Assembly (NCBI GenBank): GCA_025558095.1
Contig: JAIVFI010000014.1
Span: forward strand, 682,001-746,000
Reading direction: 5' to 3'
Source: Hyaloraphidium curvatum
Taxonomy: Eukaryota; Monoblepharomycota; Hyaloraphidiomycetes; Hyaloraphidiales; Hyaloraphidiaceae
DNA: 64,000 nucleotides
The translations under genes and the position numbers were made by a program. A model generated the notes under the pieces. The model had not been told where the DNA came from, ran no database searches, and worked only from the letters and a program-made list of their open reading frames with translations. This document shows positions 36,648 to 61,019 of the stretch, one piece after another. Positions within the stretch are counted from its first letter, which is position 1. Each line of letters opens with the position of its first letter.

Positions 36648-37657
36648 TCACGGCTTCACCGCGACAACCTCGAGGAACTCGGCGTCGACGCGGACCTTCC
36701 CTTCCTCCCCGGCCACGTTGTGCCTAGCCCAGTGCTCCACCAGCTCGGCCTTGAGCTCCCCGCCCTTCTCGCCCAGAGCCTCGAAAGCCTTGACCGTGGG
36801 CCCGTAGTACCGCGCGAAGAAGGCCACGACGTCGGCCGCGGGGAACGGATACTCAAACGGGTAAGGCAGGCGTTCGGTCTTGACCTCCATGCCCGCGAAG
36901 CGGCGCCCGACGGTGGCTTCGTCGCCCCAGAGCACGGGCGACTGCATCATCGGCGAGGGCGGGGCGTGCTTGCCGACGATCTTGAACATCTGGCCGATGA
37001 AACCCTGCGGCGTCCTGCGAGAAGACGGCGATCAGCTGGCGATCCGTGTCCGCAAGGGCGATCGCCTCACCAGTTGCACATGATGATCCTCCCGCCGGGC
37101 TTGCAGACCCTGGCCAGCTCCATGGCGACCTTGTCCCCCCTCGGCGCGAACATGGCCCCGAACATGCTGAAGACCACGTCGAACTCCCCGTCGCCGAAGG
37201 GCAGCTCCTCCGCGTCGCCCTCGACGAACTCGGCCGTGGCGCCCTCCTCCCTGGCCCGCTCACGCGCGCGGGCGACGAGGTTGGGGGCGATGTCGACACC
37301 GGTGACGTCGCAGCTCATCTTGGCGAGGGGAATGGCTGTCTGTCCGGCGCCGCACGCGACGTCGAGCACCTTCGTCCCCGCGGGGAACGAGTGCCGCGAG
37401 AGGTAGGCGATCGCGGCCGGGCGCATGTACTCGGCGAAGACGGCGTAGTTGCCCGAGGACCAAGTGGCCTTGAGCTTGGTCTGTGCGGGCCGGGAGGGCG
37501 GGATCAGTGAGAAAAGCTCGCTCGGGCGAGAAGCCACCACCTTGAGCATCGCGAACTCGGGGCTGGCGGAGACGTCCTGCTGCCCCAGCGACGGAGCTGC
37601 CTTTTCCATGGTGGCGGTGACGGGCTCGGGAACGGGGGGGACCTCGACGGGGGCCAT
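36648..37657 (-). CDS. SAM-dependent methyltransferase (class I)
   Basis: Two exons (37657-37071, 37014-36648; 56-bp intron) give 317 aa. The SAM fold is clear: VLDVACGAGQTAIPLA (motif I), VTGVDIAP (motif post I), FVEGDAEELPFGDGEFDVVFSMFGAMF (motif II) and CKPGGRIIMCNW (motif III). The last lies at the exon junction. It resembles UbiE/Methyltransf_11 proteins; the substrate is unknown. An N-terminal tail of about 60 residues is polar and not conserved. Confidence 0.85.
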
Positions 37658-38041
37658 GGCGTGGTTGCGGCGCGGGGGGGTAGTGCGGTGCGGTGCGGTG
37701 GAGCTCGGCGCTGACGGGGGGCGGTCAATTCTGGCGCTGCTGGCGGCGGAAGAGCTGCTTTTGCACAGTTTCCCGAGGAAGCCAAGAAGGTGGAGCAGCG
37801 TTCCGTGCAGCGCTGTGGTCGAGAATAGGAGCCGTCGAGTCACCCGAATCATCCGCAACCGCGCAGTGCTGTGCTCCCATCCCCTGGCGGGAAGCCCTGC
37901 CCGACGGCACCTGCTTACCAATCGACGTCTGCGTATTTATGCAGGCGACGACGAAAACTACGGACCGGTGCGGATGGATGGGTGGTCAAGATGGAGATGA
38001 GGGAGTCGGCAGCGCCATCGGTCTGTCGCAGTTCGTCCAAA
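37658..38041. other. Intergenic flank left of the transposon
   Basis: 384 bp between the methyltransferase start and the left TA of the transposon. Before insertion this DNA continued into 43,584 and served the ankyrin-kinase gene at 43,639. Confidence 0.55.
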
Positions 38042-38043
38042 TA

Positions 38044-38070
38044 GTGTTAACGGCTCGGAGATTGGCACTA
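38044..38070 (+). repeat. Left terminal inverted repeat
   Basis: Begins GTGTTAACGGCTCGGAG and ends GGCACTA, directly after TA at 38042-38043. It differs from the right repeat only at positions 3 (G/A) and 19 (T/G). Confidence 0.92.
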
Positions 38071-38169
38071 GTTGTTGGGGAAATAGGCAAAATGCAACTA
38101 GAGAAATCCCCCTCGCCGAGTCCCTTCCCCGCCCGCCGTTCCCAGATCAACTTTGACGTGCCCGCAAAC

Positions 38170-39359
38170 ATGGAGAACACCCAGGCGAGCACCGCAATCA
38201 CGTCATCGCCGCTCGGGAAGCTCCAAAAGTCACGCCTGCGGAAGTGGAGAGACGAGAGCACCCGCATGGCCGCGCTACGCATGCTCCGGGACGGCAGCCC
38301 CATGTCCGCAATCCGACGCACCCTCAAAGTCAGCAAGTCCTGCGTCTACCGCTGGTACAGGCAGTGGGAACAGGAACGCACCCTCAGCTGCAAGAAGCCC
38401 CCAGGACCGGCCCGCAAGTTCACGGACGCGGTGGCAGAGCTCGTCGTCGAGCACCTCGCTCAGCACCCCTCGTCGACTGCCAGGCAGCTCATCGCCGCGA
38501 CGGGCGCCCCGGTGAAAGAGAACGCCATCTACCGGAACCTCCGCCGCCTCGGGATCACCCACAAGAAAGCTGAGGACATGCCTGTCAACTGGCCCACCGC
38601 CGAACACATCGAGGACATCCGCACCTACCTGGAAACCATCGCCACCGTGCCCAAGGAGAAGCGCGTCTACATGGACGAGTCGTTCAGTCACCTCAACGCC
38701 GCCCCTACGCGCGGGTGGGCACGTCGCGGCCGCAAAGTCCGTCGCCACCGCGAGCGCCAGGCCCAGCGCTACATGTTCGCAATCGCAATCCGGCTTGATG
38801 GCCTGGTCCACCCGCCTGCCATATCGCGGGAGAACATGAGCGACGACGTGTTCATGCGGTACGTGCGCGCTCACCTGGTCCCCAACCTGCGGGAGGGAGA
38901 TGTTGTGATCTGGGATCGTCTCGGAAAGGTTCGGGCTCACTCTGGCAGAGAAACGCCTGACTGACTCGGCGATAGGCCGGGCGGGCGAAGAACCCATCCA
39001 AGCAGCACTACAACCCCGAAGCAAAGGCTCTGATCGAGGCAAAGGGCGCGCGCGTGGTGTTCTTGCCACCGAAGGGGAAGCAGTGAGCCCACGGAACATG
39101 CTCAGCGGTAGGGCGTGCTCACCATGCCCTCAGCTTCAACCCGATCGAGTTGTTCTTCGGCAAGGCAAAGAAGCACATTGAGCAGAGCTTTGTGGGCTCC
39201 CTTGCTGATCGGGAAGGGCGCCACCGGCGCGACGGCGAGCTGATCCGTGCCATCATGGAAGGTTGCGCGTCGGTGACCCCCAAGGACATCGCCGGATACT
39301 TCCGTGAGCGCTCAGACGACAGGGCGTTCAAAAAGGAGTATCCCTCCGTCGAATTGTAG
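38170..39359 (+). CDS. IS630/mariner-type DDE transposase, spliced
   Basis: Three exons (38170-38928, 38991-39082, 39134-39359) give 358 aa. An N-terminal helix-turn-helix (MAALRMLRDGSPMSAIRRTL, then SKSCVYRWYRQW) binds the ends. The DDE catalytic triad is D in VYMDESFSHL, D in VIWDRLGK and E in FNPIELFFGKAK. The last Asp-to-Glu block is rebuilt across both introns, which supports real splicing. Introns are 62 and 51 bp and fit host style. The ATG at 38170 lies 100 bp inside the left TIR. All three catalytic residues are present, so the enzyme may be active. Confidence 0.88.
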
Positions 39360-39373
39360 CTAAAACACTTGCA

Positions 39374-40069
39374 CTAGAAACGCTCCCTGGGTCCGTTGTG
39401 CCTCTGGCAGCGCGTCGAATCGCAGCAGTGGTAGCACTTCTGCTGCCGGCAGGCGATGGCTGCCAACTCTCCGCAATCGCACACAGGCCCATCCTGATCG
39501 CTGTCGTCGTCGTCCGAGTTGTAGCCACGGGCCTCCCTTTCGCGTTGCGCCGCCTCGCGCTCGGCCTTCCTTTCCTCGTCTCGCCAGCACTTCTCGCACC
39601 TGCCATCGTCCATGCAGAAAGAACACCTATCGCACGTCGCACACTGAACGTCCGAGATACAGTTCTCGCAACCCCAGTCACAGCAGTCGTCGTAGCAGAA
39701 GATCCGGAAGTCCTCCCACACCGGCTCGCCGCATTCGCAACGATGGATCTCCTCCAAAGTATCGTTTATGACGTCCTCAGTCCTTTCCGTGGAGGGCTTG
39801 CTCAACCAGGCGCCGCGAGACGCTTCCAGGATGGCCTTGTTTGAAAAGGAGAAGCGAGCCGCTGCGACGGTATCCGCCGCGTCGCGCGACCGCAAAAGGG
39901 CACGAACGATGGCCTCCAGCACCTCCAGGGGCATGGAGGTGAGCGTGGGCGCGGCGGGAGCGGCGGGCGCGGAGCTCTGGTCAGGCGCAGGGTCCGTGTT
40001 GTCCGGCATGGTGGGCGCCACAGGCAAGCCCTCCACAGTGTTTGCGCGCTCAATTCCGCTCAATTCCAT
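39374..40069 (-). CDS. Transposon cargo: F-box-like and Cys-rich protein
   Basis: Intronless, 231 aa, within the transposon. Residues about 45-90 read as an F-box-like helix set (MPLEVLEAIVRALL, then FSFSNKAILEASRGAW). The middle holds a dense Cys array: CECGEP, FCYDDCCDWGCENC, QCATCDRCSFCMDDGRCEKC. An Arg/Glu helix and an Asp run follow, then a second Cys/His cluster (CDCGELAAIACRQQKCYHCC). The array is probably zinc-binding, RING- or B-box-like, but the spacing fits no family I can name. Role in transposition or in evading host control is inference only. Confidence 0.6.
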   Translation of the reverse strand: MELSGIERANTVEGLPVAPTMPDNTDPAPDQSSAPAAPAAPTLTSMPLEVLEAIVRALLRSRDAADTVAAARFSFSNKAILEASRGAWLSKPSTERTEDVINDTLEEIHRCECGEPVWEDFRIFCYDDCCDWGCENCISDVQCATCDRCSFCMDDGRCEKCWRDEERKAEREAAQREREARGYNSDDDDSDQDGPVCDCGELAAIACRQQKCYHCCDSTRCQRHNGPRERF

Positions 40070-40314
40070 TACAGACAGGCGGCGGAAAAGGCTTTATGGC
40101 TTTCTGGCGTGTTTCGTAATCGAACGGAGGAGAATGTTCGATCAGTTTCCATCAGATTCCGCTTGCGCAAGCGCGGCCTATTTGAGGGCGCGCACCCCCG
40201 GTCTTCCCCTCATCACTGCCACACCCCCGGCGCCCGCGGTGAGTCCCGGCGCCCGTCCGCCGCGCCTGGATAAGTTTCGGTGCTGATACTCATAGCAGGG
40301 CGCGCGGCGAGGCC
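40070..40314. promoter_or_regulatory. Divergent internal promoter of the transposon
   Basis: 245 bp between the start codons of the cargo gene and Fanzor. It contains several short AT runs but no clear TATA box. It must drive both genes. Confidence 0.4.
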
Positions 40315-43300
40315 ATGGCAGGGCGCAAGCGACCAGGTTTTGCCGGGCCTTCCGGCGGCCCCGGTCCCCCCGGCGACTACGACGACGAGCACGACCCCGG
40401 CGAGGGCTCCTCCACCAACCCACCGCCGCCCAAGAAACGCAAACCGCGCGCGGACCTCGTCGTCGGCCCCGACGGCGCGCTCCTGCCGTTCCCCATCGCC
40501 ACCAAGGGGCCATGCGACCAGCTCATCTGCACCAACGCGGACCACTGGCGCGACGCCAAGCTCCACGACGGCGACACCTGCGAGCTAGAGATCTGCGGCT
40601 CAACCACCCACCATCCCGGCCACCATTTCGTGATCAGCGACCCCCGACTGCCTGTCACGTGCGAGAAGTGCGGCGGAGACCACCACACCGCCGTGCACGA
40701 CGAGCTCCAGCGCAAAGATGGCAAGGATCTCGTCGATTGTGACGTCTGCGGCGGCCAGGGGCACCTTCCCGTCGCGCATGAGCATCCCTGCCGACACATC
40801 CTCTGTCTCGGACACTTCGATCCAACGCACCAGCACGACTACATCGACGCGGACAACCCAAAGAGCTGCGGCCCCCTTCTCGCCCTCTGTGGAAGCGTCA
40901 ATCACTCCGACGGCGCGCACCTCACCAACGACGTGCGGCCCTTGTTCTGCACGGTCTGCGGCTCCAGCGACCACGCCTCCAAGCAGCACGACGCCGCCAT
41001 CACGTTCATGCACAACAGCGGCGACAATGCATGTGGACACGTCGGGCACAATCGCATTGGCGAAAAGTGCCTGTTTAGGTCCAATGATCTGAGGCAGCTG
41101 ACGCCGAAGCAGACCTTGGAGAGGGAACTTGGACCTGACGCCGAGAACGCAACGGTGGTGATGGCCCTACAGGCGTTCACGCGCTTGCCGTCGCGGCGGA
41201 AGCACGATCCCGTCCCCGCCGAAGGGTCGCAGGAGGATCTGGATGAGGACTTTGCCATTGAGCTCCTGGCAACGATCGACGATGCCGAGCGCAGGACCAC
41301 GCGCCTCATGGCGACCGCTTCCCTCTTCCTGGACCTGCTCTTCAAGCACTGCCGTGATTCCGCCCTACCGTTTCCGGAAGTGAACCAGACACTGCTCTGG
41401 CAGATCTTCATTGCGGTATCGGCGGACAGCGGCGGCGTTTCCCACGCCACAGTGCGCTACGTCAAGGAGAAGATCTGGGACCCCCTCGTTGCCGCTCTCC
41501 CTGCGGGAACCTACCAGCGCACGTCTCGGGACGGCTTGACGCAGATTCTCCAGATTACGGCCCTTCAGCATGACACCATTGCCCTGAACCATGTGAACAC
41601 CAACCTGCGAACGCGGGTGCGGAACTACGTGCTCACCCACATCCGCCTGGCGCTCCACGCGGCCGGGCGCTACGGGCGCAATGGCTACGGCCGAAAGGAT
41701 ACGCAGATCATGGCCAGCTACATCACCAACAGCTTGGCGGACTGGGATCCGAGGGAGCACGGAGGTGGTGGTCAGCCGACGTTCACCATTCAGGGCACAG
41801 GGGACTTTGCGGCGGAGCTACGCCTGGACCTCCCCGTTGTCGCCCTCTGCAACGCCACCTTTGAGCACGTGCGCGACGAGATCATCGGCGAAGGGCGCTA
41901 CCTCCACCCCTACTGGGTCAAGAGCAACTGGCAGAAGTGGTGGAGCCCGCTTTTCCGGATCCAGTGTGCGTTCGAGACCTGGCGTGCCCAACTCGCGACG
42001 GACTTGCGCGCTGCCAACCCCACCAACAAAGCCGAGCGCAGGGCATTCTACGATGCGCACCCCATTCGGCCCAAGCAGGTCAAAGCGTTCAACATCCTCC
42101 CCATCTACACGACGGAGGCCAAGTTCATCACCATCGAACGCCAGTCGCTGCACCACATGATCAGCCTCACGCGCAGACGGCTAGGCATGCCCCCGCTGAC
42201 CGAGGCCGCCTACAAGGCAGCGGAGAAAGCGAACCCGCTCGCCTGGTGGGGCCGCTACTTCCGCCCTGAGCTCGTCACCACGTTCCAGCAAGGGCCTTTG
42301 CCGAAGGAGGCCACGAACCGGTTCCCGACGCTGGTTCAGCGCGCGTTCTACTACTCCTTTGCCACCAACGGCATCCAGGCATCCGTTCACGTGCTTACTC
42401 GTCCGCGGGAGAGGGAGCCGGAGCCGCGCTATCCAACTGCACAGGAGCTCATCGACAAGACCATCGTGGCGGGAGACCCGGGCCGCGACGTGATCGTGGA
42501 CGCCTCCTGCGGCGCCATCGACGACACGATCACCAAGAGCCATGTCGTCACCATCACGAACGCCGAATACTACCATGAAGCCGGCTACACGGAGCAGACG
42601 CGCAAGCTCAACGTGCGCAAGAAGCGGGACCGGATCATCAGGGAGATCGAGAGCCAGGCGCCTCTGGCCAAGCCGTTCTCTTTCATGGACACCATCGTTC
42701 ACCTCCGCTACTCGCTCATTCACCTTGCGCGCGTGACTGCTTTCTATGGGACACGCGTTCACCGCAGGTCGCGGCTCTCCCGCTACATCGGCAAGCACCG
42801 CGCGCAGGAGGTGCTCGGCGCCAAGTTCCTGAAGGCGACGGGCGTGCGCGACGCGCGGGACTTGGTTGTGGGGTTCGGGGCAGCCAAGTTCCGGCACAAC
42901 AGCAGGGGGAGCGCGACCGGCCCCAGCTCGTCGCTCCCATGGCTCAAGCGGTTCCTGCGCCGCTACGGCGCCTGGATCACTCCGGACGTCGACGAACACA
43001 ACACGTCGCAAACCTGCCCGTCGTGCACGGGCAAGGTTGCCAAGAGGACACACCGAGGAGGGCACTACCGGGTCAAGGTGAGCCGAACGCGTCTCCCGTG
43101 CCGCGCAGCTTCCAATCTAATCGCCGTGCCTTACAGGATTGCAAAAATCCGAATTGTTTGACCAAGTGCTGGAACCGGGACGTCATGGCAGCGACGAACA
43201 TCCGCACCCTCATCATCTGGATGTCCTGCCACGGGCGGCGGCCTTCCCAGTTCCGCCCGCGGAACGACGGCGGTCCGCAAGACGATCCCGCGTTTGTGGC

Positions 43301-43364
43301 AGAGACCGCGCGCGCCGGGTTCATCAACGCGCACGTGGACCAGATCATGGCGGAGGCGAACTGA
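40315..43364 (+). CDS. Fanzor RNA-guided nuclease (eukaryotic TnpB)
   Basis: Two exons (40315-43077, 43137-43364; 59-bp intron) give 996 aa. The RuvC active site is complete: Asp721 in AGDPGRDVIVD, Glu894 in DVDEHNTSQTC, and Asp936 in CWNRDVMAATNI, which lies in exon 2. A zinc finger between them uses Cys901, Cys904, Cys923 and Cys928. The canonical RuvC-II site (VVGFGAAKF) has no Glu, so the catalytic Glu is the relocated one typical of Fanzors. Residues about 67-252 form an unusual Cys/His-rich region with repeats such as CGGDHHTAVHD and CGSSDHASKQHD. Fanzors cut DNA guided by an omega-RNA made from the element's right end. The intron splits the zinc finger from RuvC-III and must be removed for activity. 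Confidence 0.92.
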
Positions 43365-43581
43365 AACGGGTCCGTGTGACCCTCCCATTGTCTCGGCGCG
43401 CAGAACACCTTCGGAGCACGGGAGGCTGGGCTGTGTTATTGCCGCCGGGACGCTCGGTCAAGCTTAGGCTGTCGAGTATGGTAAACGGTATCGGGAGTTT
43501 AAAGAGCACAGCTCTTAGCATTTTTGGTTAGCCGGGGTGCTTAGACGCGATTGTTAGTGCCACTCTCCGAGCCGTTAATAC
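43365..43581 (+). ncRNA. Candidate omega-RNA region at the right end
   Basis: 217 bp between the Fanzor stop and the right end have no gene. Fanzor guide RNAs typically span this interval and end at the transposon edge so that flanking DNA supplies the guide. A perfect 6-bp hairpin with a 3-nt loop lies at 43502-43516 (AAGAGC, ACA, GCTCTT), followed by a T run. Position supports the call; no transcript evidence is available. Confidence 0.45.
43555..43581 (-). repeat. Right terminal inverted repeat
   Basis: Reads TAGTGCC...CGTTAATAC on the plus strand, the inverse of the left repeat with 25 of 27 matches. It is followed directly by TA at 43582-43583. Confidence 0.92.
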
Positions 43582-43638
43582 TATAGGCCAATCCCCCACC
43601 GCATCCCACGCACCGGCCCCCACCCCGCCTCCTCCGCG

Positions 43639-45354
43639 ATGGCGGACCTCTCGGTGTGGTTCCGAGCGTGCAAGGACGGCGCCATCCCCGCGGCCGAGCC
43701 GTTCCTCGCTTCGCCGACGTTCGACCCCGACGCGCTCGACTCCAACGGCTTCACAGGGTTCGCGCTGGCGTGCCACAACGGGCGCCACGAAATGGCCGCG
43801 AGACTGTTGAAGGAGCCGCGGATGAACCCGAACAGGGTCGTCAAGGGCGGCTACACCGCGATGCACCTCGCGTGCCGGTCGGGCCGCGGCAGGGTCGCCA
43901 AGCTGCTCGCCGACGACCCGCGCGTCGACCTGAACGCGGAAAAGGACGACGGCCTGACGCCGCTGATGCTCGCCGCCCGCGAGGGCCACGCCAAGATCGC
44001 GGAGATGCTGCTGAAGCTCGGCAGGGAGCGCAACGTGCGGCCCGACGCGGCGGACGTCAAGGGCAACACGGCCTTCATCTACGCGTGCTCGACGTCGTCG
44101 CTCGAGTGCATCGACGTGTTCCTCAGGCACCACCGGCGGGTGGCGGTCAACGTTCAGAACAAAGACGGGGAGACGGGGCTCATTGTCGCGTGCGTCATGG
44201 GCAACTCGCAGGTGGCCAACGACCTGCTGCACTACCCGGACCTGCTGGATCTGTCCTTGGCCGACAACGCCGGCAACACGGCCTTCCACCACGTGTGCAA
44301 GAACAACGACCTGGAGCTCGCGCGGTCCTTCCTGAAGCACCTGGACCAGGTTCCCGTCAACGCCGCCAACCGGGCCGGCAAGACCCCGCGCGACCTCGCG
44401 ACCGGGGAGCGGTTGCGCGCGCTAATCGACCGCGAAGTGATGCTTTACGAACGGAGCCCGAGCAAGCTTCGTGTCGACAGCTCGCGCGTCTCGTACGACC
44501 GCACGAAGGTCCTTGGGAAGGGGGGCTTCGGCGCCGTTTACAGGGGCACCTTCAAGGAGGAAGTCTCCCCCGGTCGGTTCCGTGACGTCGAGGTTGCCGT
44601 CAAGGAATCGCTTCAGGGCTTTGCGGACGCCAAGATCAGGGCGCTGTTCGACAAGGAGGTCCGCGTGTGGACTGCCCTTGGCAGGGGCCACGACAACGTG
44701 CTCAAGCTCCTGTCTTACTCGGAGGACCCCCTGGTGATGGTTTGTCAGTACGCCAACGCGGGTAACTTGCAGGAGTACCTGTTGCGGATCGCCGGGGAGC
44801 AGGACTACTACCGCCGCGCGCTCCAGCTGCTCCTCGGCGTTGCCAAGGGGATGGCCTTCATCCACGCGTCGCACGTAGTGCACGGGGACCTCAAGGCGCT
44901 CAACGTGCTCGTCGACGCGCGCCCCGGGGGCGGGCCGGTGCCGCTCATCGCGGACTTTGGCATGTCGCGCGTGCGCATGCAGGTGTCCATCACCATGGGG
45001 CAGGCCGACGCGGTCGAGGGCACGCTGGGGTTCCTGGCGCCGGAGCTGCTGCAGGGCGCTCTGGATGATTTCCCGACGCCGCGCAAGGCCAAGAAGGCCG
45101 ACGTGTTTGCCTTTGCGATGGTGGCGTACATGGTCTCGAGCAGGGGCAAGGAACCCTTCCACGACGCCAGGTTCAGGAGCGACAAGGAGCGCATGGGCGC
45201 GATCCTGGCGGGGCAGAGACCGCGGCCGCCGGCGGATGCCCCCAAGGGGCTGGTGGAGCTGATGGCGCGGTGCTGGGCGGCGGATCCCGAGAAGAGGCCC
45301 GAGTTTGCCGAGGTCGTGCGCGACCTGGACGCCGTGATTGCCGCCGCTCCGTGA
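43639..45354 (+). CDS. Ankyrin-repeat TKL-type kinase 1
   Basis: Intronless, 571 aa. Residues about 1-270 are seven or so ankyrin repeats (GYTAMHLAC, GLTPLMLAAREGH, GNTAFIYAC, GNTAFHHVC). A protein kinase follows: GKGGFGAVYRG (about 294), VAVKE, the catalytic loop HGDLKALN (415-422), DFG (439) and APELL. The HRD motif reads HGD, so it lacks the Arg that senses activation-loop phosphorylation, but Asp, Lys and Asn needed for catalysis are there. The gene sits 57 bp right of the Fanzor transposon and is a tandem paralogue of the next gene. Confidence 0.9.
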   Translation: MADLSVWFRACKDGAIPAAEPFLASPTFDPDALDSNGFTGFALACHNGRHEMAARLLKEPRMNPNRVVKGGYTAMHLACRSGRGRVAKLLADDPRVDLNAEKDDGLTPLMLAAREGHAKIAEMLLKLGRERNVRPDAADVKGNTAFIYACSTSSLECIDVFLRHHRRVAVNVQNKDGETGLIVACVMGNSQVANDLLHYPDLLDLSLADNAGNTAFHHVCKNNDLELARSFLKHLDQVPVNAANRAGKTPRDLATGERLRALIDREVMLYERSPSKLRVDSSRVSYDRTKVLGKGGFGAVYRGTFKEEVSPGRFRDVEVAVKESLQGFADAKIRALFDKEVRVWTALGRGHDNVLKLLSYSEDPLVMVCQYANAGNLQEYLLRIAGEQDYYRRALQLLLGVAKGMAFIHASHVVHGDLKALNVLVDARPGGGPVPLIADFGMSRVRMQVSITMGQADAVEGTLGFLAPELLQGALDDFPTPRKAKKADVFAFAMVAYMVSSRGKEPFHDARFRSDKERMGAILAGQRPRPPADAPKGLVELMARCWAADPEKRPEFAEVVRDLDAVIAAAP

Positions 45355-54323: not shown

Positions 54324-55456
54324 TCAGAGGTTCTTGCCGAGGAAGTCCGCCGCGTCCTCCACCGCCTTCTCCACCGCGGCCTTGACCTCGGGGCTGGCCA
54401 TGTTGCCGATGTCGGCGCGGTTGACGAAGCCGTGCTTGACGCCCTTGAAGGCGATCACCTCCGTCGCGGGCTGCACGGCCTTGAGGGCCTTGTAGTACGG
54501 GCCGTCCTCGCTGCAACGGGGCGGCGGCGTCAGTCCGCGGTATCGCGAGGGGGGAGGCGGCGCCGCACGCACAGGTAGACGGGGGGGTCGTTCTCGGCGG
54601 GGCAGAAGAGCATGGGCGCCGACGACTTGCCCAGCAGCTCCGCGGCGTTGCCCCCAAACACAAAGTCCTCCAGGTGGATCGACGGGTGGAAGATGGCCGC
54701 GGCATTGACGTGCGGCTTGAGGTCGGCGTCGCCGGCGGTGTGGGCAATGACCCAGCCTCCCCTGCAAAGCGCGCGGGGCGGTGAGCCGGCGGCGGCGGCG
54801 GGGAACGCGGCGGGGGACAGACCAGCAGTACCCGACCATGCCGATCTTCTCGGCGCCGCCGGCCTTGAGCGCCTCGAGGCACGCCTTGATCTTGGCCTTG
54901 AGCTCGGGGAACTTGAAGTTCTGCAGGTAGCCGACCAGGTCGTTCATCCTGTTCTCGATGTCGAAGTCCGGGGGCAGGGCTGCCGCGCGGCGGAGCGTCA
55001 GCGACGGGCGGCACGGGCAACGCGGGCGCAGGACGCACCGTCGCCGTCGGTGCCGCCCTCGAAGGGCGGGGTGAGCAGCTTGGGCACCATGACGCGGTAC
55101 CCGCCGTCGCCGTAGTTGTCCGCGATCCCGCGGAGCCGGCCCGAGTTCCAGCCCCACACGTCGGGGATCATGAGGATCTGCGGTTGCGGCGATGCGGCGG
55201 GGGGCACCGGCGGGAGGCAGTCAGCGGCGCGGACGGCGGGAGGGGACGGCGACCCATACGGCCTTCTTGGCGTCGGCGGGGCCGGTGGTGTACACCTCGA
55301 GGCCGGAGGGCAGCGTGCCGGTCTTGCCCTTGGTCGCGTAGTCGGCCTTGAGGTAGCTGGTGCGGCGGGCGGGCGGGGGTGAGCGCCCGCGCGGCGGGGG
55401 CGGCGGCGCACGCACGGCTCCGAGTTGGGCGGGCAGCACGGCGCGGTGGACGACAT
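54324..55456 (-). CDS. Dienelactone hydrolase family protein, copy A
   Basis: About six exons from ATG 55456 to stop 54324. Blocks in order: CCPPNSEP, YLKADYATKGKTGTLPSG, ILMIPDVWGWNSGRLRGIAD, FDIENRMNDLVGYL, IGMVGYCW with the catalytic Cys, GWVIAHT, IFHPSIH, APMLFCPAENDPPVY with Asp, and KGVKHGFVNR with the catalytic His. The Cys-His-Asp triad of dienelactone hydrolases is complete. In fungi such proteins often act on lactones or unknown esters. Exon ends were placed by motif continuity; exact borders inside the gene are approximate. Confidence 0.82.
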
Positions 55457-56896
55457 GGCGGCGGCGGGGATGCGGGGCGGCGGCCGGTGGGGCGGATGGA
55501 AGGGGGGAGACGGTTTGGCGGACGCGTCGGCACGCGCGCCGATCCCGCGGGCGCGGGGTGGGCCCCGGCGATCGGGGGCCGAAGGAGGGCCGGATGCCTT
55601 CTCCGGACCGGTGCAACCGATCAAGAAGATGGAGTTGAAGGTGGATGGACGGGCGATCCGCTTCGGGAGGACCGCTCGCGGCGGATTGCACGCCGGAACG
55701 TGGTGGAATTCGCACTTCGAACGGCAAGAGATTGTGGACCGACGGCACAGAAGGGTCCGCATCGTCAACCATAGTGTTTCTTAATCAGTTCCACGAACTG
55801 CTGGTTTTTATTCACCTCGAGGCTGGCCGGCCCCAACTGTACGCGGCACGGCAAGCCAAACCTCCGGTTCAGTTCGTGCAGGTGCGTGCGGAGGCGACGT
55901 GGAGGCGGTAACCGCGCGGTGGTTCATGAAGAGGGATCCTTGCGTGGAGTCTGGAGTCTGGAGCCGTTGTTCACATTTATCCACAGCCAAAACAGGCTCA
56001 CAACCCCGCTTTCTCCGGGCCCGTCGAAGCTCAGTCCAGACTCTTTGTGCCCGCCACGGCTGCCGGCACCTGCAATCAGCCTGCGGCGACCGCGACAGCA
56101 AACCGCAGCACCTACCCCGCTCTCACGACTACACGATTGGATCGGGCGCACGCCCAGACCCGCCCAAGGACCCTGCTATCCACTGCCAGGCGCAAACAGA
56201 ATGCATTCGGGAGGACTCCGGGCGCAGGACAGGCCTGCAAAAGCGTTCCGAAGATGCCATCCGCCATGGGTGCGCTGCGTCGTGCGGGACGGACAGGGCG
56301 GCGGGGGAGCCTGATGCCGAGCCGACTCGGGCCGCCCCCGCTCCAGACCAGCGCGCTCGCTTGGCGGCGCCCGTTCCGCGCGGCGCAAGGCCATCGGCAG
56401 GAGACATCGGCCACAGAAGATGTGCATGCTGCTGTTCTCGGAGGAGGCATGGTGCTCGATAGTAGAACGTCCAAACGGTTGGGGGTACGCGACAAGGTCG
56501 AGGGCCCTCTACATGTGCTCTGCACGCCAGGGGCTTACGGAGGCCCCGGTACGCGGCACGGCACCGATCGGCAACGCGGGATCATGCTTTGCGTCCGCGG
56601 CAACGGCGGCGGCTCTGCTTGGAGGCTTTTGGGACGGCCAGGACTAGGAATCGGGCTCGCCGCAGGGTGCGGCCACGCGGCCGGCCGGTCTGCCGGTCGG
56701 GTATGTGGTCTGGTGGAGGCGGCGGCTCAGAGGCGCGACGAGATGGAAGCGTAGCCCTTGGATTCTTCGAGAGCTGCGATCCAACTGCTACCTCAGCTCC
56801 AAAGAACTAGCCATCTCAATGGACCAATATAGCGGTGCGGTCTTGGGCCCTGACTGCAAGCAATCCTTGCGCATGTTCCGCACTTTCCTTTGAACG
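55457..56896. other. Intergenic, 1.4 kb, between divergent genes
   Basis: Between copy A of the hydrolase and the P-domain gene. Several open frames run through but show no domains, signal peptides or codon pattern. Nothing else is seen. Confidence 0.5.
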
Positions 56897-57733
56897 ATGC
56901 GCACCTTCCCGCCGCTGCTGGCGATTGCCGCCCTCACCGTGCTCGCGCTTCTCGCGTGGCCGATGCCGTCCGCGGTTGCCGCGCCCGCCGCGCGCGCGCC
57001 CTCCGCGCCCGGCGACGCCGCCCGCCTCGCGCCGCGGCAGCCGCGCACCTCCGCGCGGCGCCGCACGACATCGCGCCGCGCGACGCCCCGCGCATCCACG
57101 ACGCAGCGCCGCTCGTCGACCGCTCGCCGCTCGTCGACCGCTCGCCGCTCGTCGACCCGCGCGGTGGGCGGCCGCCGCACATCACGCCGCGCCGCTAACT
57201 CGTACCGCTAATTCGCACCGCCAACCCGCACCGCTAATTCGCACCGCCAACTCGCCCCGCAGACCACCGCACGCCCGCCCACGCCGTCCGTCTACTGCCG
57301 CCGCCCGGCGCTCGCGATCCCCGACCCCGGCAACGCAACCGACGCCGTGCTGGTGCCCGCCATCGGCACCGTGCGCGACCTCGACCTCGTGCTCGACGTC
57401 CTGCACCCGTACGCCCCCGACGTGTTCATTTGGCTGCGCAGGCAGGACGGCCGCACCGCCTTCGTCTTCCGCACCTACCCCGACTCGCGCAGGCGAAACG
57501 CACGGCGCGCCGTGGCCCCCGCAGCTTGCCTTCAGGTGCGGCGCAACATCACGCTGGACGACGCCGCCACGGTGGGCCTGCCGACCTGCGCTCCACCACG
57601 GATGCGGCCAACGGAGGGCCTGGACAGGTTCAACGGCGGGCCAGCAGGGGGCCTGTGGAGGCTTACGTTGCGCGATGCGGTCGCCCAGGACAGGGGGACC
57701 CTTTACGGCTGGTGCCTGGTCATCCGCGTGTGA
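56897..57733 (+). CDS. Secreted P-domain (proprotein convertase-like) protein
   Basis: Two exons (56897-57163, 57263-57733) give 245 aa. A signal peptide (LLAIAALTVLALLAWPMPSAVA) and an Arg/Ser-rich stretch with 18-bp repeats (RRSSTA) precede a P domain. P-domain features are VYCRRPALAIPD, VRDLDLVLDVLHPYAPDVFIWL, LDRFNGGPAGGLWRLTLRD and GTLYGWCLVI. P domains normally follow subtilisin-type proteases; here no protease is present. The basic stretch could be a processing site. The middle of the P domain (ARRAVAPAACLQ) is irregular and may hide a small intron. Confidence 0.7.
57164..57262 (+). repeat. 13-bp minisatellite inside the P-domain gene intron
   Basis: Four units of about 13 bp (CGCACCGCTAATT and CGCACCGCCAACY alternating) lie at about 57207-57255, within the putative 99-bp intron. 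Half of them carry CTAAT, close to a branch-site consensus. Confidence 0.6.
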
Positions 57734-58003
57734 GCGGGGGACTGCTCATCATAAGGCGCAGGGGTTCGGTGTGCCGCGCAGGCGGGATATGTAGACGACC
57801 CACTAAGAATACCGCGCAAGCCCAGACCCGCGCAGGGCCGCTTTCTCTTGTGACTGGCGTGCGGGATGCTCTGTTGAGAAACTCGGACGCAGGGCACGGT
57901 TTTCATAAGCCCTCGAAGGTGCCCTAGTGCACCATGTGGAGCGGACGGAGGGGTTGGGGAGGCGTTGATGCGACATGCATTTGCTGACCCGTGTGGCTGC
58001 GCG

Positions 58004-59659
58004 CTACATCCCTGCCAGCACTGCTGCGAGTTCGTCCCTGACCTCTGCCGCCGTCGGCCGGTGCCTCCAATCCCGCCTGCAGCACATCCTGTAGACGCGC
58101 TCGAGCTCCCGCTCCGGCGCGCCACCCTGCCAGTCGGGCGGCCTCCCCTGCCCGAGGTAATCCCTGACGATCTGCGACAAGGAGCGTCAACCGCCGACAC
58201 GGGTGCGGGACCGCCAAGCGCGTCGCAGCCCACCTGATCCCCCGCCATCCTCCCGAACGGCCTCCGCATCCGCGCCGCCGCGCACCAGCACATGACCCCG
58301 AGCGCCCACACGTCACCCGCCCTCCTCCCCTCGGGCGTCGCCCACCCCGCGCGGTCGATCCACAGCTCGGGCGCGGCAAAGTGCACCGAGCCGTGGGGAT
58401 GCCGCGCGTCGCGGCAGGAATACACGCCCAGGCCGATCCGGGAGAGGCCGAAATCCGCCACGGCGGCGCGCGACGGGAAGAGGAGCACGTTGGCGGGCTT
58501 GAGGTCCGCGTGGACGAGGGAGCACGCGTGCAAGAAGGCGACGCCGGCGGCGGCGTCGCGGAGGTGGGAGACGGCGAGGCGGAGGTAATCAGGGCCCTGC
58601 GCGCCGGCGAGGAAGGCGTCGAGGGAGGAGTCGGCGCGGGGGGAGACGGTGCGCCGGGGGCGGGTGCCGAAGGCGATGAGCTCCAGGACTGCAAGCGCGG
58701 TACAGGGTGGAGGCGGTGAGGGGCGGCACCGGGTTGTGCCGATGGGGCCCACCGTGGTCGCGGCCGTCGTTCCCCGCGAGGTCCGCGTTGGCCGGGTCGG
58801 TCGCTTGGCGCGAGAGGAAAGTCCAGTAGATGACCTCCTTCCTGAAGGCTTCCATGGCCTCAAAGTGGATGGGAACGTCGCCGGCATTCCTGCGGGGATC
58901 GACGGCGTACTTGACCGCGACGGGCCGGCCGCGGTAGCTGCCCCCGAACACGACGCCCTGGCCGCCGCTTCCCAGCACGTCGTTGAAATCGACCGCCAGC
59001 TGATCGTCGTCGATCTGCGCCGTGGCCATGGTGGCCTCGTGCTGCGCGGCCCGAAGGTCCACCAGGTCCCGCGTCGAGCCCGCGGCCAGCTCGCGCGGGG
59101 CCTGCCCGGCCCGGTTGCGAGCCGAAAGGTCGATCGCCCAGGGGTGCTTGAAGAACTCGCTGATCAGCGGGTCGGATGCGTTGCGGCACGCGTGGTGGAA
59201 CGGCGTGTTGCCGTCCCGATCGACGCGGAGCGGGTCGACGGCGAACGCGTCGGTGAGGGAGAGGAGGTACCGCACCAGGGCGACCCCGCGGTCCGGGAAG
59301 GACGCCGAGCTGGCGCAAATGGCACCGAGGCCGGTCTGTCCCGCCTGTGTGCCCGCCCACTTGGGGCCGTGGACGTCGCCGAACGTGTCGACGAGCACCC
59401 TCACGGCATCGACGTGGTTGTGCCTGCACGCGAGCGTGAACGGCACCTCGCCTTCGATGTCGACTTGGTGGTTCTCTGCTCCGCCTTCCTGCAGCGCCAG
59501 CATCACGTCCGCGTGGCCGTTGCGCGCGGCCCACATGAGCCCCGTGCGGCCGCGCGGGTCGCGCACGTTCGGGTCGAAGCCGGGCGATTCGAGGAAACCC
59601 CGCACGGCATCGACGTCTCCATTTTGGCAGGCAGCGAACCACCTGCGGAGGTCCGCCAT
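58004..59659 (-). CDS. Ankyrin-repeat TKL-type kinase 3
   Basis: About three exons from ATG 59659 to stop 58004, with introns near 58690-58750 and 58150-58215. Ankyrin repeats (GRTGLMWAARNGH, PFTLACRHNH, GNTPFHHAC) precede a kinase with GSGGQGVVFGGSYRG, VAVKYAVD, HADLKPAN, DFGLSR and APELW. HRD reads HAD. It shares the Gln in the glycine loop with kinase 2. It is head-to-head with hydrolase copy B, with 74 bp between starts. Confidence 0.82.
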
Positions 59660-59733
59660 CCGCGTCCAATGCAGGAGAAGGGAGGGCGGCCCGTTGACGC
59701 GATCGCGTTGTCGGCCAAGGGCAAGGGCTTGCC

Positions 59734-61019
59734 ATGCCGATCTTCCGCGCCATCCTCGCCCCGGCCATCGCGGCGTCCTCAGCCCCTCTGCGCCTCCTAT
59801 CCGCCGCAAAGATGTCGTCCGGCTGCTGCCCGCCCAACTCAGAGCCGTACCTCAAGGCCGACTACGCGACGAAGGGCGCCACGACCACCTTGCCGTCGGG
59901 CGTCGAGGCCTACGTCGTCGGTGGGCGGATCGGCCGCCGGACGCGTGGAATCCCGCTCATCGTGCCCGTCCGTGTGCGATGCAGGCCCCAAGGATGCCAA
60001 GAAGGCGGTCGGTCCCGCTGCCTTGGCCCCGCGCGTGGCCCCCGCTCACCCGACCGTCCCCCACGCCCTCCCTTCCCGCTCCCCAGATCCTCGTGATCCC
60101 CGACGTGTGGGGCTGGAACTCGGGCCGTGTCCGCGCCATTGCCGACAACTTTGGCGACGGCGGCTACCGCGTCGTGGTGCCGAAGCTGCTGACCCCCCCG
60201 CTCGAGGGCGGCACCGACGGCGACGGTGGGTCCGGTTGCCCATCACGTGTGGCGACCGGGGAGCTGATATCGCCCGCCACCCACGTCCAGCGCTGCCCCC
60301 GGACTTTGACATCGAGAAGCGGATGATGGACCTCGTCGGGTACCTCAAGAAGTTCCCCTTCGCCTCGAGCCTGAAGCCCAAGGTCGCCTCGTGCCTCAAG
60401 GACATCAAGGCCGGCGGCGCGGACAAGATCGGCATGATCGGATACTGCTGGTTTGCCCCCGCTCCGTCAGGGCTGTCGGGATCACGGCTGATCCCGGTCC
60501 CGCCCGCCTGCCAGGGGAGGCTGGGTCATCGCCCACACCGCCGCCGACCCCGCGGCCGGCCCGCTCGTCAACGCCGCGGCCATCTTCCACCCCTCGATCC
60601 ACCTCGAGGACGGCGTGTGGGGCGGCAAGGCCGCGGAGCTGCTCGGGAAGTCGTCCGCGCCGATGCTCTTCTGCCCCGCCGAAAACGACCCGCCGGTCTA
60701 CATGTGGGTCCGCCGCCGCCGATGCTTGCGTTGGTTCCGGTGCTGATGGGCGAAACACGGCAGTCCGGGCGGCCCGTACTACGACTCGCTCAAGAAGGTC
60801 CAGCCCGCCACGGCCTCGGTCCCTTTCAAGGGCGTGCAGCACGGCTTCGTGAACCGCGGGGACTTGGCCGCGCCCGGCGTGAAGGAGGCCGTCGGGAAGG
60901 CGATCGACGACGCCGCGGCGTTCTTCTCGACCACCCTGTGGGTTGGCCCGTCGCTAGGCGGACGGATGCGGGGTTGTGCTGACCGTACGTTCGGCAGGGG
61001 ATCGGGACAGAAGCTCTAA
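59734..61019 (+). CDS. Dienelactone hydrolase family protein, copy B
   Basis: About six exons from ATG 59734. The same blocks as copy A appear: CCPPNSEPYLKADYATKG, ILVIPDVWGWNSGRVRAIADN, FDIEKRMMDLVGYLKKF, IGMIGYCW with Cys, IFHPSIHLEDGVWGG, APMLFCPAENDPPVY, and VQHGFVNRGDLA with His. Unlike copy A, it begins with a 25-residue Ala/Arg/Leu stretch (FRAILAPAIAASSAPLRLL) that looks like a mitochondrial presequence. The C-terminus after FFSTTL runs on about 26 residues that copy A lacks, so the true end may differ. Confidence 0.8.

Follow-up and report, generated by a model that had tools for sequence, protein, structure and literature searches.

Single-copy, TA-flanked mariner elements that carry a transposase, a second gene and a Fanzor1 nuclease were published in 2013 (Bao and Jurka, PMC3627910). 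Three of these elements encode a transposase plus two further proteins, and the third protein of PGv-1 is a Fanzor1. The other closely comparable system is Spu-1 of Spizellomyces punctatus (PMC10432273), whose nuclease SpuFz1 has the published catalytic residues E541 and D606. The omega-RNA of Spu-1 spans the right repeat and extends 14-15 nt into the flank, where it supplies the guide; the left repeat is preceded by a conserved CA, and CATA serves as the TAM.

The window analysed here, a stretch of 64,000 nucleotides from Hyaloraphidium curvatum, contains an element that, by its sequence, is most likely an IS630/Tc1-mariner transposon, structurally complete and present once, which sits at a TA between a methyltransferase-domain gene and an ankyrin-kinase gene. 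That it represents a mariner element with a Fanzor1 is close to certain. The features of the element and its surroundings are as follows (window coordinates).

37067-37852, minus strand: methyltransferase-domain gene, left neighbour of the element
38042-38043: left TA target-site duplication, flank CCAAA-TA
38044-38070, plus strand: left terminal inverted repeat (TIR), GTGTTAACGGCTCGGAGATTGGCACTA
38170-39359, plus strand: IS630/Tc1-mariner-type transposase, 363 aa (exons 38170-38928, 38976-39082 and 39134-39359)
39374-40069, minus strand: cysteine-rich protein, 231 aa, intronless
40315-43364, plus strand: Fanzor1 nuclease, 996 aa (exons 40315-43077 and 43137-43364)
43478-43583, plus strand: predicted omega-RNA scaffold, a hairpin with the right terminus and the TA paired (z -2.9)
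43555-43581, minus strand: right TIR, GTATTAACGGCTCGGAGAGTGGCACTA
43582-43583: right TA target-site duplication
43584-43599, plus strand: predicted guide in the right flank, with a length taken from SpuFz1 by analogy
43639-45354, plus strand: ankyrin-kinase gene, right neighbour of the element

Element ends and coding content

The TIRs (38044-38070 and 43555-43581) are 27 bp long, identical at 25 of 27 positions and flanked by a TA duplication as in IS630/Tc1-mariner elements; repeats and outer TAs were recovered at the same coordinates as in an earlier, sequence-only reading of this locus. None of eight Markov-resampled windows contains a 25/27 inverted pair at a spacing of 1-10 kb. The same scan of the real window returns the TIR pair of the element and others, and the other pairs listed belong to genes duplicated in inverted orientation at 54.4-60.9 kb. 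This large duplication (54411-60863) has arms that are 76-88% complementary, includes an ORF with a weak dienelactone hydrolase match, and reads like inverted paralogous genes, not like a transposon.

The transposase frame is continuous after removal of two introns inferred from the sequence (38929-38975 and 39083-39133), and an in-frame ATG at 38092 would lengthen the protein by 26 aa. By motif reading, the catalytic D, D and E of the spliced protein are D169, D249 and E294. Under the inferred introns the second D and the E are 44 residues apart, which exceeds the spacing of 34 in Tc1/mariner. The first transposase intron shares the donor GTTCG with the Fanzor intron of a second Fanzor family in this genome (family 2, below), which makes the splice sites of these two introns more believable. 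The protein matches the IS630 model NF033545 (NCBIfam) with 109.1 bits (cutoff 100) and DDE_3 with 30.7 bits (cutoff 28.6), besides HTH_23, and thus belongs to the IS630/Tc1-family DDE transposases. HTH and DDE_3 domains, the TA target and short TIRs are common to the IS630 family (NF033545) and Tc1-mariner; the IS630 match, the DDE motifs and the TIRs bear out the earlier assignment to an IS630/Tc1/mariner element at a TA. The nearest relative of the transposase in the genome (L036, C2:554254-554768) is 48% identical over 54 aa and interrupted by in-frame stops, and none of the genome's Fanzor matches lies there.

The Fanzor gene possesses a single inferred intron (43078-43136). Its product displays D721 (DPG), E894 (DEHNTSQ), a zinc ribbon and D936 (NRDVMAATNI), and the complete Fanzor1 motif set D...[TS][TS]..C4 zinc finger...RD is found as DPG at 721, DEHNTSQTCPSC, CKNPNC and NRDVMAATN. 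Searched alone, the protein is weakly visible (GtFz1, E 0.0088); a profile built from it and a relative in the same genome reaches GtFz1 with 1e-5 and SpuFz1 with 0.0016, which relates it to solved Fanzor1 proteins. In the profile alignment E894 and D936 fall in the SpuFz1 segments taken to hold E541 and D606, and the matches and aligned catalytic positions together uphold the Fanzor identity first proposed from the sequence. The N-terminal regions of both Fanzors are rich in Cys and His with conserved C..CG....H....H motifs, and this pattern likely marks a zinc-binding array. All three genes that had been described as intact are present, but the transposase (two introns) and the Fanzor (one) are open only once spliced.

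The Cys-rich gene runs towards the transposase, with 14 bp between the two stops, and away from the Fanzor, whose start is 245 bp distant. Its product has no match worth the name in Pfam, NCBIfam or the PDB, and the F-box-like character ascribed to it earlier finds no support in that result. The residues PLEVLEAIVRALL look by eye like the start of an F-box, and the Cys-rich half could bind zinc, features that would suit an F-box/ubiquitin-ligase adaptor with a protective or regulatory role towards the transposon proteins; this identity is nevertheless very improbable, for a Pfam search including the F-box profile returns nothing up to E 10 (HMMER filters drop most weak matches), the PDB search yields no relative, and the single-sequence AlphaFold model is uninformative (pLDDT 48). 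The gene is probably an accessory or passenger gene.

Copy number and other Fanzor families

The genome searched comprises 31.9 Mb in 55 contigs. Throughout it, the TIR is absent outside the two ends of the element at up to 3 mismatches (0 control matches), and neither solo TIRs nor deletion derivatives occur at this threshold. The genome likewise lacks a second full-length copy of the transposase or the Cys-rich gene, and a paralogous empty site, as the joined flanks match only both flanks of the element's own locus. Further copies or movement, which are usual for such transposons and not required by their definition, are not in evidence, and mobility and exact ends cannot be checked by copy comparison because the element is single-copy. 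The recent mobility supposed in the sequence-only reading, which had looked to further copies with the same TIR start and had staked its proposal on their existence, is not supported by this result. Without other copies, recent mobility loses its evidence, whereas the case for a transposon stands, as the published relatives likewise occur as single copies.

A lone copy, with neither solo TIRs nor deletion derivatives within 3 mismatches, is also what an immobile relic or a one-off arrival, e.g. via a virus, would leave behind, with a dead transposase and the Fanzor as a passenger without a retention role. The TIRs differ at 2 of 27 positions, the sole close transposase relative in the genome is a decayed fragment with in-frame stops (C2:554 kb), and viral transfer of such elements has been proposed (Bao and Jurka, PMC3627910). 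Such an origin is nonetheless rather unlikely: all three frames are open after removal of short introns, with catalytic motifs kept, and GC3 values of 0.78-0.83 lie inside the range of the host genes in the window. Viral contigs queried with the Fanzor, the transposase, the transposase core, the Cys-rich protein and the two-Fanzor profile likewise contain no relative, in short-pattern scans that are insensitive to diverged proteins.

Family 2 is a repeat of ~5.1 kb with TA at its ends and a Fanzor ~41% identical to that of the window. It is present in six copies with end sequence (L029:2530-7653 on C31, and L030-L034), 0.6-5.5% divergent, and a decayed one (L035); in the C1 copy the right terminus is missing. 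The Fanzor is 1088 aa long in the C31 copy, and its dN/dS of about 0.27 between copies indicates that it is under selection. An antisense ORF of 204 aa, confined to the family 2 copies in a genome search, is conserved as well, with 14 synonymous and 7 non-synonymous changes (about 0.15). It occupies the same divergent position as the Cys-rich gene of the window and is, by eye, unlike it in sequence. Neither a search with the window transposase nor Pfam on the family 2 ORFs finds a transposase in this family.

Family 3, with a Fanzor1 (L055-L062, L069, L070 (C3:624800 to about 633600)), comprises at least eight copies with 99.7-99.95% identity over 2.2 kb and was probably active recently. A long open frame that precedes the Fanzor in the left part of one copy has motifs, recognised by eye, of an IS630-type transposase. 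The left dinucleotide (left ends, L070-L079) is TC in five and TA in three of eight copies, the right one always TA; the left ends do not fit a plain TA duplication. Three more matches exceed the cutoff of PF07282 (TnpB/Cas12f zinc-ribbon), namely L051 (C2:397554), L052 (C5:336026) and L053 (C2:426655), and point to more TnpB/Fanzor lineages in the genome. Among the several Fanzor elements of the genome, that of the window does not look the most active; family 3 provides the better test bed.

Candidate retention mechanism

Our preferred explanation is a cut-and-paste element whose Fanzor favours recopying at the emptied site, with a probability of roughly 0.6 for the explanation as a whole. 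The transposase would excise the element and reinsert it elsewhere at a TA. The Fanzor would bind an RNA read from the 3' end of the element through the right TA into the flank, and would recognise the emptied site by a TAM of about ATA followed by the right flank as target, the predicted sequence being CCAAATA joined to TAGGCCAATCCC. Cutting of this site and repair of the break from a sister or homologous copy would restore the element, so that excision could proceed without its loss. By analogy, the omega-RNA and TAM design of Spu-1 would also fit the window element. A retention role after excision is plausible, and the chances that the Fanzor serves in element retention are about even.

The base before the left TA is A in the window element. 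The six copies of family 2 whose left end can be read all have A there as well (C31 GCAGA, C2b ATCGA, C1 AAAGA, C34 TTGAA, C2a GCTA, C7 CAAAA; five calls are clear, that of C7 is less certain). With 0.17 expected per site, seven of seven has a probability of about 4e-6. After the right TA, the base is T in 3/6. The asymmetry of the flanks leans to a TAM, since a site preference of the transposase by itself would be expected on both sides; the left/right contrast is not significant (Fisher p 0.07 for 7 copies, 0.18 for 6 copies). By comparison with Spu-1, the A before the left TA in the window element and family 2 leans towards a TAM trace and is suggestive; against this reading, family 3 lacks an A at the position before the left dinucleotide, which itself is TC in most of its compared copies (5 of 8).

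In the window element the 3'-terminal 106 nt (z -2.9), and in family 2 the 3'-terminal 104 nt (z -2.4), are each predicted to form a hairpin that pairs the right terminus and the TA. Their sequences are unlike each other, and covariation is absent, the family 2 copies varying mostly in the loop without compensatory changes. As modelled, these 3'-end hairpins are suggestive of an omega-RNA scaffold. A ten-base motif, GTAAACGGTA, is located at the base of the window 3' hairpin (43478-43500) and at the extreme end of family 2 (L029:7640-7653), and could be a common RNA feature or chance.

Several distinct Fanzor/TnpB families reside side by side in this genome, as might also be seen if the Fanzor had been co-opted for another use, e.g. 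cutting competing transposons or other DNA, and not for retention of its own element. Its role is left open in the literature, where ghost loci suggest action in trans (PMC10432273). Co-option is improbable here, since the gene is still within the TIRs and the predicted scaffold ends at the right TA, an arrangement in which the guide would target the site vacated by the element itself. A combined reading, in which the Cys-rich gene acts together with the Fanzor as a divergently transcribed accessory partner, and retention explains persistence only at ATA sites, is a long shot. If the partner reading were true, pairing of the nuclease with an accessory protein may be a regular trait of Fanzor1 transposons in this lineage.

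Comparison with known systems

Retention through recopying, as preferred above, would be testable within one organism, since the genome holds at least three different Fanzor element families, of which two include an IS630-type transposase and one hardly varies among the copies compared. Spu-1 (PMC10432273) resembles the window element in its TIRs, TA duplication and Fanzor1. Its 3' omega-RNA reaching into the right flank and its TAM (CATA), covering the TA and the preceding bases, have counterparts in the window element that are only predicted. Spu-1 exists in multiple copies, and its repeats enclose no transposase, whereas the window element is single-copy with the transposase inside.

The elements of Bao and Jurka (PMC3627910) are, like the window element, single-copy and TA-flanked, and the latter is of the PGv-1 type by gene content, since its TA-flanked TIRs enclose a transposase, a further gene and a Fanzor1. 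The middle gene differs: it encodes a GIY-YIG or restriction-type endonuclease in the published elements and an antisense Cys-rich protein of no known domain here. Neither this third gene nor the N-terminal zinc-rich Fanzor array was found in the literature searched (open-licence papers). The gene combination had seemed unfamiliar from the sequence, which holds for the third gene but not for three-gene mariner elements with Fanzor1, known since 2013 (PMC3627910). Taken alone, the window element is mainly another mariner-Fanzor combination with an undescribed third gene; its novelty lies in this gene and, as observed in this genome, in the zinc-rich array at the Fanzor N-terminus, while the mariner-Fanzor1 combination was already known.
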